DNA from: a virus
IMG/VR virus record: IMGVR_UViG_3300022602_000473
Location: 1-21,861 of that record
Length of the DNA stretch: 21,861 nucleotides
Reading direction: 5' to 3' (one strand)
Part shown: piece after piece, positions 13,111 through 17,750 of the stretch
How positions within the stretch are numbered: position 1 is the first letter of the stretch
How the letters are laid out: the number at the start of each line of letters is the position of its first letter
Notes under the pieces: model-generated
The model's input: the letters and a program-made list of their open reading frames with translations, nothing else
The model's database searches: none
What the model was told of the DNA's origin: nothing
Program-made: the position numbers and the translations under genes

Positions 13111-13340
13111 CGCCAATCCCCAATTTGTCCACGGTTGCCTTTTTTCCATTGGTCGTACATATCTTTAGCAAGTAACTCCCGGCGGCTATTAAATTTAGAA
13201 TTAGCAAAATAACCCCTAAAACCGGCAAGCCCAAACTGGGTACGGTATATAAGTAATTGCCTGATTTCGCACTCATACCGCCATCTTTCCAATGTGTTGT
13301 TGGATTCTTTGTCGGTACTGCCCCATAGATTCCCCGGCAT
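13107..13340 (-). CDS. Small protein of the replication operon, unknown function
   Basis: The 77-residue basic protein contains NTLERWRYECEIRQLLIYR and ends in KKGNRGQIGDWR, a layout I have seen in small phage proteins next to replication genes. The ATG at 13340 overlaps the upstream gene by 68 nt, which is long; no later in-frame ATG gives a sensible product, so the start is somewhat uncertain (a non-ATG start nearer the end of the overlap is possible). Arg/Trp-rich composition suggests nucleic acid contact. Confidence 0.65.
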   Translation of the reverse strand: MPGNLWGSTDKESNNTLERWRYECEIRQLLIYRTQFGLAGFRGYFANSKFNSRRELLAKDMYDQWKKGNRGQIGDWR

Positions 13341-13647
13341 AAGCTTGTAGTCCCAATTCGCGGCCTTTGGCCAAGGTTAAGTCATCGGTACTATACCAAG
13401 GTAATGAAGGTCGCTTTAGTTCTTTTGGTGTCATGTCAAGTTCATCTTCAAACCGGCCCTGGTTAATCCACGTACTTGCATGGGGTATGAAATCCATTTC
13501 CGTACCCTTGAGTTTCCAATAAGCAACGTGTTGTTCAATGGCTTCTACGGCATCGGATTGTTCTTGTTTTGTAAGCCGGTTAAATGCCCCTTGGGCGGCA
13601 CGTTTGGCCACCTTTCGGGGATAAAGTTTCCAAAAGGTATCAAACAT
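13273..13647 (-). CDS. Replication-protein C-terminal domain (phage replisome / helicase-loader type)
   Basis: The 124-residue protein starts MFDTFWKLYPRKVAKRAAQG and has GTEMDFIPHASTWINQGRFE at about residues 49-68. This FxxFWxxYPRK...PHxSTWxNxxRW pattern is the conserved C-terminal module of many phage replication initiation or O-like proteins. Here it stands alone without an N-terminal winged helix, as in a number of phages. It may bring helicase or primase to the origin. Its start shares one base with the stop of the preceding gene (TAATG). Confidence 0.75.
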   Translation of the reverse strand: MFDTFWKLYPRKVAKRAAQGAFNRLTKQEQSDAVEAIEQHVAYWKLKGTEMDFIPHASTWINQGRFEDELDMTPKELKRPSLPWYSTDDLTLAKGRELGLQAYAGESMGQYRQRIQQHIGKMAV

Positions 13648-13874
13648 TATGCGGCCTGTTTATTTGCACAAGCTTCATAACGTGTATCGGTGTATTCAAA
13701 AAAGTAATGTTTAACTTGATTGATAACTTGATTTGCTTGTTCTGTTTTACCCATTGCAATTAATTCTTGTGCATCTGACAAAATGCCAGCCAAATACATA
13801 TTGATGTTGTATTGGGATTCAAATTGTTTTTCAAGGGCTTGTTCTGTGCATCCAAAAATTTTTAATTCGTTCAT
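13647..13874 (-). CDS. First gene of the minus-strand recombination/replication operon, unknown function
   Basis: A 75-residue protein (MNELKIFGCTEQALEKQFES start, ACANKQAA end), mainly helical, with no recognised motif. It is the promoter-proximal gene behind the hairpin leader at 13895-13910, with AAGG 8 nt upstream of the ATG. The same leader design precedes two plus-strand genes (15255 and 17379), so all three genes are probably expressed early under common control. Confidence 0.75.
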   Translation of the reverse strand: MNELKIFGCTEQALEKQFESQYNINMYLAGILSDAQELIAMGKTEQANQVINQVKHYFFEYTDTRYEACANKQAA

Positions 13875-13894
13875 TTTGTTTTCCTTTAATTTTC

Positions 13895-13945
13895 ACTGCA
13901 CCGTTGCAGTACTTATAATTTACTAAAGTAATCTTTAGTTGTAAA
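13895..13945 (-). promoter_or_regulatory. Early promoter, operator and 5' hairpin leader (copy 1)
   Basis: On the minus strand: TTTACA (13945-13940), a 17-bp spacer, then TAAATT (13922-13917). A perfect 7+4+7 inverted repeat ACTAAAGTAATCTTTAGT (13922-13939) covers the spacer, so a bound repressor would block RNA polymerase. Six bases after the -10 box begins ACTGCA-ACCG-type hairpin 13910-13895 (stem 6, loop 4), which would form the very 5' end of the transcript, followed by AAAGGAAAACAAA and the ATG at 13874. Confidence 0.75.
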
Positions 13946-14215
13946 CACCTTTTTTATCTTTTTTTGATGTATTAGGGTTTTCCTTACTAATTTCTTTATT
14001 ACTGTTGTATTTCTGCACAATCCTTTTGGTGGACGAACCTAGCCCACCTAGGTTTGCCTTAATCCGTTTGGAGCCACGGAACCCGTCAGTCGTTCAGGAA
14101 ACCGGCACTAACTTCGCCACCGGCATTTGCGTTATTACATTCCTTATCCCCCAGTAACGCTTCTATCCTGACCGCTGGTGGTGGTGAATCCCCAATCAGA
14201 ACGATTGCGAATAAG
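13946..14215. other. Structured non-coding stretch, possible RNA gene or origin
   Basis: No convincing gene lies here. After an AT-rich part (13946-14020) the sequence becomes GC-richer and full of inverted repeats: AACCTAG/CTAGGTT (14036-14042 with 14048-14054), TCCGT/ACGGA (14063-14067 with 14076-14080), and nested TCAGGA...GCGTTA with TAACGC...TCCTGA between about 14095 and 14178. This could be a small RNA, a long leader, or the replication origin next to the replication operon. Strand cannot be decided. A 42-codon open frame starting at GTG 14029 and ending at 14157 on the plus strand has no ribosome binding site. Confidence 0.45.
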
Positions 14216-14316
14216 AAACAAAAAACCCCTTAGTGGATAGACTGTATGGAAACTAAACTAATTAAATGGTTCAAGTGCATTTAATTAATTCAGAACAATC
14301 TACCCATTAAGGGGTT
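14216..14316 (-). terminator. Terminator with a long structured loop behind the Cro/methyltransferase operon
   Basis: On the minus strand an 18-bp stem (14299-14316 with 14224-14241; one G-U pair, one mismatch) ends in AAGGGGTTTTTTGTTT, the form of an intrinsic terminator. The loop is 57 nt, far longer than usual, and contains its own 10-bp hairpin TAATTAAATG/CATTTAATTA (14259-14268 with 14278-14287). An 8-base segment in the loop (14246-14253) is complementary to 14329-14336 outside the stem, giving a possible pseudoknot. Confidence 0.65.
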
Positions 14317-14357
14317 CTAACTTCAGCGGTTTCCATGTCGCAATGGTTAAAACTATA

Positions 14358-14926
14358 TCACATATTTCCCCATTGGTCAGCCATTGCATCAGCAATTCCT
14401 TGATAAGTTGTGCTTCTTAATTTCCAACGGTCTGCGCTGGGCGGCAATTTATGCAAACGTTGTTCACGTCCTTCAACAATATTTGTTGGTTGTAATTCCG
14501 GCAAACCCTTTAACCATAAGCAAGTAGCTTTAGTTTCACCATGCCCAAACATCCAAGGTTGAATAACTTGATTTTGCCGCCAACCAATGATTTCTACGGC
14601 ATATTTGTGCATTATTGGGTTTTCAATTGCATATTTAGGAATGTTGCAATCTAACAACATTTTAAAAAAATTAGCACCGTCCCTCATTTTGTCCCAGCGG
14701 CCTTCTTGCTTATAAAGCCATGAAACGCCTGAATTACATAAATAAGTGCATGGTGGGTGGGCTACCATTAAATCCCAACCATCATTAATAATGTCAAAAA
14801 TATCGCCTTGATAGTGCGGCCCAGGTGTATCAGTTGGCAATAAATCACAACTTATGGCTTCGTGCCCCCCCCGATGAACGCATCACGTACACGTCCTGAA
14901 TACTCACAAGCTACTAAAACTTTCAT
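14358..14926 (-). CDS. C5-cytosine methyltransferase-like protein, frameshifted at a G8 run
   Basis: The natural start is the ATG at 14926, overlapping the Cro-like gene stop (ATGA). It encodes MKVLVACEYSGRVRDAFI, a SAM-binding motif I-like beginning, then reaches eight G (14865-14872) and stops early at 14852. One base added or two removed there would join it to the frame reading HEAISCDLLPTDTPGPHYQG onward to 14358. That part has HPPCTYLCNSGVSWL (catalytic PPC type), ENP at about the motif VI position, and TKATCLWLKGLPEL. As written, only an N-terminally short 160-residue protein from ATG 14840 could be made, lacking motif I. Possible explanations are a sequencing or assembly error, slippage-based on/off switching, or a decaying gene. 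The intact protein would be about 190 residues, the usual size for this short phage family. Confidence 0.75.
14865..14872. repeat. Homopolymer run of eight C (G8 on the coding strand)
   Basis: This mononucleotide run lies exactly where the methyltransferase-like gene changes frame. It is a long G/C run for this AT-rich genome. Such runs are prone to slippage in replication, transcription and sequencing. Confidence 0.95.
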
Positions 14927-15153
14927 AAATTTTTAAGTTCCGGCCAAATTATCCACCAGTTGTCAGGAAACAACGTTTTCCTAGTAACGGCATTTCTGGA
15001 TTCTTTTTCTATTGTTGCGGCCATTAACGTTAACGGACCCATAGGAATAGCATCATTGTTGCGCCATTGACACACCGCTTGAACGCTTACGCCACATAGC
15101 TTTGCGACCTTTGCTGGCTTTCCTAACAAGTCAATTAATTCTGCATTAGTCAT
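14923..15153 (-). CDS. Cro-like helix-turn-helix repressor
   Basis: The 76-residue protein has a helix-turn-helix at about residues 9-33 (LGKPAKVAKLCGVSVQAVCQ then WRNNDAIP) and the C-terminal RKTLFPDNWWIIWPEL typical of the Cro/YdaS-type phage repressor group. It is transcribed leftwards, divergent from the early plus-strand operon, and the gap between them carries two tandem operator-like repeats (15170-15187 and 15191-15208). It therefore probably represses the early promoters and its own promoter; a TAATAT box at 15180-15175 overlaps the nearer operator, though no good -35 box is visible. AGGAAAATAA precedes the ATG. Confidence 0.88.
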   Translation of the reverse strand: MTNAELIDLLGKPAKVAKLCGVSVQAVCQWRNNDAIPMGPLTLMAATIEKESRNAVTRKTLFPDNWWIIWPELKNL

Positions 15154-15169
15154 TTATTTTCCTAAAATT

Positions 15170-15233
15170 GCTAAATATTACTTTACAAGAACTAAATTTT
15201 ACTTTACATTTGTCAGTACGGCAATGTCGCCGT
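15170..15233 (+). promoter_or_regulatory. Early promoter, tandem operators and 5' hairpin leader (copy 2)
   Basis: TTTACA (15182-15187), a 17-bp spacer, then TACATT (15205-15210). Two 18-bp operator-like sites, GCTAAAT-ATTA-CTTTACA (15170-15187) and ACTAAAT-TTTA-CTTTACA (15191-15208), repeat at exactly 21 bp, two helical turns, so both would be bound on the same DNA face. Seven bases after the -10 box a hairpin ACGGC-AATGTC-GCCGT (15218-15233) begins, followed by GATAAAAAAGGAG and the ATG at 15255. Confidence 0.75.
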
Positions 15234-15254
15234 GATAAAAAAGGAGTAGCAAAC

Positions 15255-15503
15255 ATGGTTGATGAATTAAGCCAATTGATGTTGGAACATGAAGAATTCC
15301 TTGAAAAAGCTTTAGATGACATGGAATTTAGTAATGAATTTATGACCCAGGAACAAGTTGACTGCATCCGTCAAGCTTGTGGAAAACCACGTAATAGTCA
15401 CGTTAACCCATTGTTACGTGATGTGATAAATGACTTTGCCAATGTTTTTGGAAGTGATTTCAAAAAATTTGATGAAGATACCAAAAAAATGTTTAGAAAG
15501 TGA
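15255..15503 (+). CDS. First gene of early plus-strand operon, unknown function
   Basis: An acidic 82-residue helical protein beginning MVDELSQLMLEHEEFLEKAL. The ATG at 15255 has a strong ribosome binding site (AAGGAG, 8 nt away); the frame is open further upstream, but that part covers the promoter and leader. The stop overlaps a GTG at 15500. I recognise no family. As the promoter-proximal gene it is expected to be made very early. Confidence 0.78.
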   Translation: MVDELSQLMLEHEEFLEKALDDMEFSNEFMTQEQVDCIRQACGKPRNSHVNPLLRDVINDFANVFGSDFKKFDEDTKKMFRK

Positions 15504-15508
15504 AAAAA

Positions 15509-16150
15509 ATGATAATCGCAAAAAGAAACAGTAGCGGCACCGGCGACTTTAAATTACCGCCACCAGGTAGCTTTCTAGCCCGTCTATATCGCATTATTGA
15601 CCTTGGCACCCAAACAACTGAATGGATGGGTAAAAAGAAAATGCAACGCAAAGTATTGTGTATGTTTGAGTTGCACGGGGAAGATAACGATGGCAATCCG
15701 CTGGTTATGGATGACGGCAAACCAATGGTTGTTTCAAAGCGTTATACGTTATCTTTGGACGAAAAAGCCACGTTGCTAAAGGACTTACAAGCTTGGCGCG
15801 GCAAAGAGTTCACACAAGAAGAATTAGACGGTTTTAGCCTAGAAGTATTGCTGGGTAAATTTTGTATGGTTTCTATTACCCATAGCGAATACCAAGACAA
15901 GACTTACGCCAATATTGCCAGCATCAGCCAAGTGCCGGCCGCATTGAAAAAGCTTGGCGAACCCGTTGGTGTCAATGAAACTTTAATGTTTTCTATTGAC
16001 CCGTGGGATAGAGAAAAGTTTGATAAGTTATCACAAGGGTTGCAAGATTTAATTAAAAAATCTGCTGAATACCGGAACACCTTTGATACTGCGCCAGCTA
16101 AACAAGGCGCAACAATTGAAGATGACAATTTTGACGATATTCCATTTTAA
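15509..16150 (+). CDS. Phage single-stranded DNA-binding protein (SSB-like)
   Basis: The 213-residue protein begins MIIAKRNSSGTGDFKLPPPG and has beta-strand-rich segments typical of an OB-fold phage ssDNA-binding family (LARLYRIIDLGTQTTEW, KVLCMFELHGED, VSKRYTLSLDEKATLLKDLQ, LGKFCMVSITHSEY). Its last residues DDNFDDIPF match the acidic tip of bacterial SSB (DDDIPF), which recruits host replication and repair proteins. It likely coats ssDNA in phage replication and recombination and works with the exonuclease encoded two genes downstream. I chose ATG 15509 with AGAAAG 8 nt upstream over GTG 15500, which overlaps the previous stop. Family from memory of similar phage proteins; the SSB tail is seen directly. 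Confidence 0.8.
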   Translation: MIIAKRNSSGTGDFKLPPPGSFLARLYRIIDLGTQTTEWMGKKKMQRKVLCMFELHGEDNDGNPLVMDDGKPMVVSKRYTLSLDEKATLLKDLQAWRGKEFTQEELDGFSLEVLLGKFCMVSITHSEYQDKTYANIASISQVPAALKKLGEPVGVNETLMFSIDPWDREKFDKLSQGLQDLIKKSAEYRNTFDTAPAKQGATIEDDNFDDIPF

Positions 16151-16158
16151 GGATTAAT

Positions 16159-16392
16159 ATGAAATGCGCTGAATGTAAACATTTTGCTGGCCAGCCGGGC
16201 GACCGGTATGGCTTGTGCAGAAGATACCCAAAAAATGAAAACAAATCACAAGAAGATTTATGTGGTGAATTTTCATTAAAAATTTTTCCACAAAAAGAAG
16301 TTGAAGTTGAAGTTGAATTTATTCGTGAATACGATATAACTACTGACGAATTCAAACCCAAACGTGGAAGAAAACCTAAAAATGTTAGTTAA
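16159..16392 (+). CDS. Zinc-ribbon-like protein with an AT-hook-like tail
   Basis: A 77-residue protein. The N-terminus has C3-x2-C6, C20 and C35, a likely single zinc site (MKCAECKHFAGQ ... YGLCRRYP ... DLCGEF). The middle is acidic (EVEVEVEF) and the end is basic with RGRKPK, which resembles an AT-hook that inserts into the minor groove of AT-rich DNA. AAGGATTAAT precedes the ATG. It sits between the SSB-like and exonuclease genes and overlaps the latter by 11 nt, so a role in DNA metabolism is plausible. Confidence 0.75.
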   Translation: MKCAECKHFAGQPGDRYGLCRRYPKNENKSQEDLCGEFSLKIFPQKEVEVEVEFIREYDITTDEFKPKRGRKPKNVS

Positions 16393-17170
16393 GGAACGCA
16401 CAAGTGAAAGTGGGCATTGGTATGACCGGGCTGGCAATCCAGCCTATACAATCATTGGAAAAAACGGCAAAGAACGCGGCACGACCTTACGGGATGCCCG
16501 CACCCTCAATCTATGTCCATCTGTCACAACAATACTTGGAGTTGCGGCAAAGCCAGGACTTGATACTTGGAAACAACAACAAGTCTTATTAAGCGCGCTG
16601 ACATTACCAAAGTCTGAAGGGGAATCGGAAGAATCATGGCTTGAAAGGGTTATGATGGATTCCAAGCAAACTGGACGTATTGCCGCGGAACGTGGTACGG
16701 CCATCCATGCGACCATACAGGCGTTCTTTGAAGGTGCTTTGATACCTGAAGCCATGCCAATCTGTCGGCCGGTAGAACAGGCCATTAAAGACCATTTTGG
16801 GGAACAACTTTGGTTGCCGGAATTAAGCTTTGCACATCCTATGGGTTTTGGTGGCAAATCAGATTTGACGGCCAAAGCAAAGCATGATTTTGCTGGTATT
16901 TCTATTGACGTCAAAACCAAAGAAACTACGGACATTTCTAAAATTGACGTTTATCCGGAACACGGTATGCAATTAGCCGCTTACCGCCAAGGTTTTAATA
17001 TGCCAGCCGCCAGGTGCGCCAATGTGTTTGTAGGCTACAAAATGGTTGAAGGCACTATTGTTTTTACTGGCGTTAAGGTTATTGAACATACCGCAGAAGA
17101 TTTAGACCGCTATTGGTTAATGTTTACTAAACTGTTAGAGTTTTGGCAGTTAAAGAACAACCATAAATAG
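16382..17170 (+). CDS. RecB/Cas4-type PD-(D/E)XK exonuclease
   Basis: The 262-residue protein has the four family motifs in order: GTAIHATIQAFFEG (His, about residue 107), a GFGGKSDLTAK motif (Asp, about 162), ISIDVKTKE (the D-x-K core, about 175) and MQLAAYRQG (Q-x3-Y, about 203). This is the signature of RecB/Cas4-like exonucleases and phage recombination nucleases. The N-terminal PSVTTIL segment is also typical. It would resect dsDNA ends to give ssDNA for annealing, with the nearby SSB-like protein. I prefer ATG 16382, overlapping the preceding stop, to an upstream GTG at 16364. No iron-sulphur Cys cluster is seen, unlike Cas4. Confidence 0.88.
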   Translation: MLVKERTSESGHWYDRAGNPAYTIIGKNGKERGTTLRDARTLNLCPSVTTILGVAAKPGLDTWKQQQVLLSALTLPKSEGESEESWLERVMMDSKQTGRIAAERGTAIHATIQAFFEGALIPEAMPICRPVEQAIKDHFGEQLWLPELSFAHPMGFGGKSDLTAKAKHDFAGISIDVKTKETTDISKIDVYPEHGMQLAAYRQGFNMPAARCANVFVGYKMVEGTIVFTGVKVIEHTAEDLDRYWLMFTKLLEFWQLKNNHK

Positions 17171-17259
17171 GGCGGTTAACGGGGCGTTGAAGGATGCAAC
17201 AAGGTGGGGCTTTTCCCCGTTTCGACCCACCAGCTATCAGTTGCCAAATTCACGCCCTA
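17168..17259 (+). other. Nested inverted repeats after the exonuclease gene, possible structured RNA
   Basis: TAGGGCG (17168-17174, including the exonuclease stop) pairs with CGCCCTA (17253-17259). Inside, GCAAC (about 17196-17200) can pair with GTTGC (about 17239-17243), and GGTGGG (17203-17208) with CCCACC (about 17226-17231) around a loop that itself contains GGGG and CCCC. The three stems nest without conflict. It is not followed by a T-run, so a simple terminator is unlikely. A 33-codon frame (17194-17295) lies within but has no proper ribosome binding site. Confidence 0.5.
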
Positions 17260-17306
17260 CTCTGTTGCAGATTTACAACTAAGGGTATGTCCTAATAAAA
17301 TATCGC

Positions 17307-17357
17307 TTTACAAGTGAAGTTTACTTTAGTAAATTACTAATACGGCAACGGTGCCGT
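17307..17357 (+). promoter_or_regulatory. Promoter, operator and 5' hairpin leader (copy 3)
   Basis: TTTACA (17307-17312), 17-bp spacer, TAAATT (17330-17335). An operator-like site AGTGAAG-TTTA-CTTTAGT (17313-17330) lies in the spacer, with one half-site identical to that at 13.9 kb. Six bases after the -10 box a hairpin ACGGCA-ACGG-TGCCGT (17342-17357) begins, followed by GATAAACAAAAGGAATAAATC and the ATG at 17379. Confidence 0.78.
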
Positions 17358-17378: not shown

Positions 17379-17657
17379 ATGAAAGCAATCGACATTCAAT
17401 TAAGCAAAGTTGACCAGTTGGGTATGTTGTTGGCCCAAATCGCTGACTTGGAAAAACAAGCAGATGCACTCAAAAACGAACTTAAACAAAACGAAGGCCA
17501 CATTGAAGGCAATTTGTTTAAAGCTTTCGTTACCCTTTCACAACGCGCTACCGTTGATAACAAAGCAGTATTCGCAGAAGCCAATGTGCCAGCAGAATTA
17601 ATTGCCAAGCATACCAAAACTACTGCCGTAATCACTTTAAAAGTTACATCCAAATAA
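17379..17657 (+). CDS. Coiled-coil protein of unknown function
   Basis: A 92-residue protein. Residues 5-42 form an amphipathic coiled coil (LGMLLAQIADLEKQADALKN), followed by a compact part with ATVDNKAVFAEANVPAELIA and KHTKTTAVITLKVTSK. I have seen similar proteins, with a TVDWKAV-like motif and HTKTT ending, in other phages, without a known role. It has its own promoter and leader (copy 3), so it can be expressed apart from the upstream exonuclease. High expression is suggested by the good ribosome binding site (AAAGG). Confidence 0.78.
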   Translation: MKAIDIQLSKVDQLGMLLAQIADLEKQADALKNELKQNEGHIEGNLFKAFVTLSQRATVDNKAVFAEANVPAELIAKHTKTTAVITLKVTSK

Positions 17658-17662
17658 TCTAG

Positions 17663-17731
17663 GACAGGCCGTTGACACTATTCAGCTTTATGGCCCGTGG
17701 GGATTTCAAACTAAAAAGACCTCGGCCTGTC
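17663..17731 (+). other. Long-stem hairpin between two early genes
   Basis: GACAGGCCG (17663-17671) and CGGCCTGTC (17723-17731) form a perfect 9-bp stem around a 51-nt loop. A third GGCC in the loop (about 17692-17695) could compete for pairing. It begins 5 nt after a stop codon and ends 19 nt before the next ATG. There is no T-run. It may insulate or stabilise the mRNA, or be an element of a small RNA. Confidence 0.5.
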
Positions 17732-17750
17732 ACCCAATTAAGGAAAACAA

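Follow-up and report, generated by a model that had tools for sequence, protein, structure and literature searches.

Most known examples of stabilising stems at the 5' terminus of an mRNA come from single genes or from engineered vectors. The ompA and papA leaders of E. coli, whose 5' stem-loop stabilisers were reportedly studied by Emory, Bouvet and Belasco, are single host-gene leaders with a base-paired 5' end before the Shine-Dalgarno (SD) sequence, and their function is expected to depend on structure rather than sequence. The phage T7 gene 10 (phi10) leader likewise carries a stem-loop at its 5' end, with an A/U-rich SD region behind it; the leader follows a T7 RNA polymerase promoter and belongs to a late capsid gene. 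This stem-loop is a reported mRNA stabiliser (PMC2254391), and in the betaproteobacterium Cupriavidus necator it raised mRNA abundance and increased expression 1.5- to 3.6-fold (PMC6146998). RNA hairpins are also found on the leftward and rightward early transcripts of lambdoid phages, as in nut/boxB and HK022 put, and the lambda OL/OR system with CI/Cro joins one small helix-turn-helix (HTH) protein to a single class of palindrome that is found at promoters of both directions.

The window analysed here, a 21.9-kb virus record, carries three leaders predicted to share with ompA and papA a paired 5' end before the SD sequence. Unlike those single leaders, the element is a minimal stem of 14–16 nt with its first base at the predicted +1; backed by covariation, it is found again at almost every early promoter that has the operator in this phage group. 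In contrast to T7 gene 10, from which the stems also differ in sequence, host-type promoters with a repressor operator are used, and the genes are early ones. We regard the leaders as a probable variant of the known 5'-terminal stabilising stems, in which stabilisation itself would hold by analogy.

Anatomy of the three leaders and their operators

The preliminary description had reported three sites with a TTTACA box, a 17-bp spacer, a -10 box, a hairpin and an SD sequence, and all of these were present as written at leaders A, B and C. Promoter A lies on the minus strand (13917–13945), with TTTACA at 13945–13940 and, after 17 bp, TAAATT at 13922–13917; the hairpin ACTGCA ACGG TGCAGT follows at 13895–13910 (minus strand, predicted +1 at 13910), and then the SD sequence AAGGA at 13882–13886 (minus strand). 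This promoter serves gene A (13647–13874, minus strand; 75 aa, no family), which leads a leftward operon and is followed by the gene for a replication initiation protein (13273–13647, PHROG 270). On the plus strand, promoter B (TTTACA, 17 bp, TACATT; 15182–15210) precedes the hairpin ACGGC AATGTC GCCGT at 15218–15233 (predicted +1 at 15218) and an operon with a first gene of unknown function (15255–15503, plus strand, 82 aa), the later genes including a PHROG 862 member (15500–16150) and an exonuclease (PHROG 298, 16364–17170). Also on the plus strand, promoter C (TTTACA, 17 bp, TAAATT; 17307–17335) is followed by the hairpin ACGGCA ACGG TGCCGT at 17342–17357 (predicted +1 at 17342) and by gene C (17379–17657, 92 aa, unknown function), a conserved anchor for comparing this promoter across relatives.

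The gap between the -10 box and the hairpin was 6 nt at A and C and 7 nt at B. Behind each hairpin came RAWAA, then the SD sequence and ATG, and the stems were flanked by a T before and a G after, both nearly invariant. The GC stem with a U tract that marks an intrinsic terminator or attenuator was not seen, as GATAAA or GAAAAT and the SD sequence stand behind the stem on the coding strand. None of the three leaders matched a family in Rfam. A strict scan for promoter, hairpin and SD sequence returned A, B and C as the sole matches in the window and none in six Markov shuffles. By hexamer score alone the promoters were unremarkable, with 36 promoter-like sites in the whole region against 41 ± 6 in the shuffles; the significance of the three sites thus comes from the conjunction of their features and from the relatives that carry them, not from this score.

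In most copies, the 17-bp spacer and the -10 box hold an operator-like palindrome, ACTAAAG-N4-CTTTAGT, which was absent from the preliminary description. It reads ACTAAAG-ATTA-CTTTAGT at promoter A (13922–13939, minus strand), where it spans the spacer and the -10 box and is retained in relatives, AGTGAAG-TTTA-CTTTAGT at promoter C (17313–17330, plus strand) and, in degenerate form, ACTAAATTTTACTTTA at promoter B (15191–15206, plus strand). A more distant class carries TTAAG-N4-CTTAA in the spacer and -10 box. Beside promoter B lies a small HTH gene of the repressor/Cro-like kind (14923–15153, minus strand; PHROG 35), the likely owner of the operators, with a recognition region that differs in step with the operator class: CTTTAGT operators pair with an GVSVQAVCQWRNN-type HTH, and TTAAG-N4-CTTAA operators with an GVSVPAVSMWQNG-type HTH. 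Because gene and operator co-diverge, this small protein probably binds the promoter operators, and a palindrome at several promoters together with a co-varying HTH gene is what a repressor-operator regulon would present. Unlike lambda, there is one operator per promoter, within the spacer and the -10 box, and no tyrosine integrase was found among 21 related records. The likeness among the three promoters is largely that of the operator, and the hairpin is therefore a second, separate feature. Upstream of promoter C, another palindrome, TAAGGGTATGTCCTAAT (17280–17296, plus strand), is kept in relatives as TAGGG-N-CCCTA and also precedes the larger structured RNA (see below) in another phage group; it is a candidate second operator, activator site or terminator.

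Position and predicted fold of the hairpin

Downstream of the -10 box, the first paired base was in all classes an A, which stood at nt 7 in classes A and D and most of C, and at nt 8 in class B and part of C. Since this is the normal place of +1, the hairpin is predicted to form the extreme 5' end of the RNA. Folding predictions for the classes of the window gave a median probability of 0.98–0.99 for pairing of +2 and 0.88–0.96 for an unpaired SD sequence, and the probability that +1 is unpaired was about 0.14. The class with TTAAG operators has a short hairpin of 4–5 bp (dG about -5.7) with a pairing probability of 0.68 at +2, and this counts against the explanation that we favour. An extra complementarity in this class, CTGTC/GATAG, is not claimed as part of the stem and would fall upstream of +1.

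We consider it reasonably probable that the promoter-embedded 5'-terminal stem-loop shields early mRNA from 5'-end-dependent decay, in the manner of the leaders of ompA, papA and T7 gene 10. On this view, a P22-like podovirus would use the three sites as early promoters under repressor control, and the transcript from each would open with a blunt stem-loop that pairs from +1 onwards. The first 14–16 nt of the RNA would immediately form a hairpin of 4–7 bp with about no unpaired 5' nucleotides, and the A/U-rich SD region behind it would remain open. Such a paired triphosphate end should be poorly converted by a pyrophosphohydrolase of the RppH type and poorly sensed by RNase E, both enzymes being assumed for the host, and the early mRNAs would be longer-lived and more translated as a result. 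In E. coli, a 5' hairpin hinders RppH conversion and stabilises the bla mRNA (PMC3997798); a paired 5' end also fails to stabilise some mRNAs of this bacterium, which counts against the explanation (PMC3997798). The start sites, mRNA stabilisation, expression gain and infection benefit are what we infer here. Dozens of very short natural stem variants have been kept by matched mutations across this phage group. They are evolutionary evidence that 5'-end pairing itself matters in infection, and they offer a natural series to learn how many pairs are needed and how many unpaired bases are tolerated in a non-model host.

The distance from the stem end was 5–11 nt to the SD sequence (usually 7–10) and mostly 18–23 nt to ATG, looser than the spacing to the -10 box. 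Being rather constant, the hairpin-to-SD spacing counts against a view based on decay only and fits a role in translation, where a compact hairpin upstream of the SD sequence would free the ribosome site and aid 30S loading independently of decay. In agreement, the SD sequence is open in the folding prediction, and a stem-loop upstream of the ribosome-binding site lifted output with three such sites in C. necator (PMC6146998). We regard this alternative as unlikely, because the hairpin is held more tightly to the -10 box (nt 7 or 8) than to the SD sequence or ATG, the A/U-rich leader would probably be open even without the stem, and hairpins were not seen at internal operon genes in genome scans that required a promoter. 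The constant SD spacing may leave a translation role as a partner or a rival of 5'-end protection.

Covariation of stems and variation of loops

Compensatory stem changes in relatives, proposed in the preliminary description as the check on the hairpin, were looked for and found, both as covariation and as matched changes at the gene-C promoter. In a set of 24 representative leaders, paired cells amounted to 97.2%, against 81.3 ± 2.1% when shuffled, and the covariation score was 0.452, against 0.180 ± 0.025 when shuffled and at most 0.063 when the partners were slid by 1–3 columns. Pair 3 was GC in 15 of these leaders, CG in 7, UA in one and UG in one. At orthologous gene-C promoters, the stems read CGGC, CCGC, UCGC (with a U·G), CCGA, CUGC or CUCC according to the clade; mapped onto the gene tree, the stem word changed at least eight times and stayed paired, and two-sided changes numbered three at pair 3, three at pair 4 and one at pair 5. 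A MAFFT alignment of gene-C leaders, in which 15-nt and 16-nt hairpins were misaligned, was left out of the pair counts. Some of the stem jumps could be exchanges of the whole cassette; even so, every cassette keeps a paired stem. The basal A-U and C-G pairs showed hardly any variation, indicating some sequence preference besides shape.

Moreover, among 35 distinct hairpins, curated by hand with chance operator matches removed, the non-Watson-Crick combinations at pairs 1–4 were 11 G·U (not all independent, with about six origins by eye) and no A·C. As G·U occurs and A·C never does, the pairing is that of RNA from this strand and not that of a DNA palindrome. Every stem is an inverted repeat in the DNA and adjoins the operator, as would suit a palindrome at +1 for a second DNA-binding protein, with the RNA hairpin as a by-product; this is very improbable, since half-site sequence and spacing differ among promoters within one genome, the matched changes are two-sided, and the strand asymmetry is unexpected for a DNA site. 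Collectively, the comparison strongly supports the view that selection has kept the structure of the RNA stem, not its sequence.

The loops measured 3–6 nt, had many sequences, and differed even among the leaders of one genome (AATGTC, ACGG and GATTG in L003; AATGTC and CTT in L004). The preliminary description had also suggested that a phage protein might bind the hairpin RNA; such a site could be an N/boxB-like or put-like antiterminator site, or a translational operator. The hairpin is boxB-like in size (16 nt) and, as with nut/boxB and put, it is present on leftward and rightward early transcripts alike, but the variation of loop sequence and length inside single genomes makes a loop-reading protein unlikely, and the constant GNRA-like loop of N/boxB was not observed. 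Given the predicted +1 at the hairpin start, there is no room for a boxA upstream on the RNA, and none was seen downstream by eye. An N-like first gene was not noticed, and put RNAs are much longer, two-hairpin elements. The suggestion is thus disfavoured, and we take a protein site to be quite unlikely.

Recurrence in related phages and neighbouring RNAs

With gene C as the protein query, 80 related loci were obtained, and an independent DNA pattern of promoter plus hairpin matched 73 virus-contig stretches among 2.9 million contigs, many with two copies. When GA was added to the pattern and its gap made slightly narrower, 257 Gb of genomes from bacteria and archaea gave no match, and a scan of the genome collection with the gene C protein gave no relative, so neither route led to a prophage or a host. 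Relatives near completeness measure 33–36 kb and hold, in the best cases, three or four leaders. By terminase, the closest named records are metagenome phages from Manatee Spring, labelled podovirus or myovirus, with P22-like portal and coat genes.

Promoters collected by operator and -10 box only, with no hairpin required, amounted to 159 distinct elements, and the hairpin was present in 148, a proportion to be read with the caveat that many loci had been fetched with a pattern demanding it; in loci found by the gene C protein only, 56 had a hairpin and 5 had none. Chance hairpins of equal quality occurred in Markov shuffles at about 4% per site. Most of the 11 hairpin-less elements are chance operator matches, L034 and L165 bear a similar but weaker hairpin, and L134 and L143 show a larger structured RNA at the transcript start. 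Classes L054–L082, remote gene-C relatives with less sure start codons and promoters, were left uncounted; they partly bear hairpins (CGGTC ACTTGA GATCG or GACCG; CTGAC...GTCAG). With starts as predicted, it is well supported that nearly all operator-controlled promoters of this group of P22-like phages, which are uncultured, carry a 5'-terminal hairpin. The regulon-wide 5'-terminal hairpin of the preliminary description is accordingly well backed by the fixed position of the predicted +1, the covariation and the recurrence on these promoters. We found no earlier description of phage-wide 5' hairpins in the open-access literature.

Operator, promoter and leader travel as a module, up to four per genome, which would also fit a recent duplication of the promoter cassette with a hairpin devoid of selected function. 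This we hold to be extremely improbable: stems differ between copies and orthologues with pairing retained, the matched changes at the orthologous gene-C promoters being a case in point, and unrelated stems stand at the equivalent place in distant relatives. In the more distant podoviruses MW202674 and MW202520, the latter are ATGGC/GCCAT, ACTAGC/GCTAGT and GTAGCA/TGCTAC, behind TTAAG-type operators or other promoters. The precedence of structure over sequence that characterises 5' stabilisers was therefore seen in covariation, in the G·U/A·C asymmetry and in these unrelated stems. It is possible, though we lean slightly against it, that operator, promoter and structure-only 5' stem form a portable, family-wide cassette for mRNA longevity, in which any gene under the repressor would also gain a protected 5' end.

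The larger structured RNA, undescribed so far, occurs in the window at 17660–17734 (plus strand), directly upstream of an SD sequence, with copies at L134:4413-4487, L143:1129-1203(-), L050:6282-6356, in L183 and L187, and in others. Its closing stem P1, in which covariation was seen at 8 of 9 pairs, surrounds a nearly invariant core (UGACACUAUUCRG, a variable hairpin and ACUAAAAAGAC). The core was found in 38 virus-contig stretches, and a covariance model added more divergent copies; comparison with Rfam gave no credible match (best E 0.52, far below the gathering score), and no copy was found in isolated phages. It is a candidate new cis-regulatory RNA family. In L134 and L143, it replaces the small hairpin at an operator-controlled promoter and, with a closing stem that begins at about +2, the 5' end is paired there too.

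A late-type promoter, TTGCAAAACAC..ATTAAGAT, is conserved at L156:9031 (plus strand) and in G018, G013, G019 and G003. In these five genomes, TTGCAAAACAC...TTAAGAT is followed by the hairpin ACACTA CCTA TGGTGT and a structural-region gene; it was not counted as a fourth leader, its stem lying about 9–10 nt after the -10 box with no SD sequence directly behind.

Upstream of promoter A, the window matched Rfam RF02932 (Betaproteobacteria-1 RNA) at 14081–14202 (minus strand) with 90.5 bits. This RNA was detected in 14 of the 29 records of related phages and in none of 14 control genomes, and it thus appears phage-borne in the set examined; the family name weakly suggests a betaproteobacterial host for the phage. 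Beside it, an intergenic, long imperfect inverted repeat, AACCCCTTAGTGGATAGA ... TCTACCCATTAAGGGGTT, extends over 14224–14316. Finally, the frame of a DNA methyltransferase (14358–14926 region, PHROG 757) appears broken at a run of eight C (14867–14874, read on the minus strand; G on the coding strand), a candidate assembly indel or phase-variable tract.
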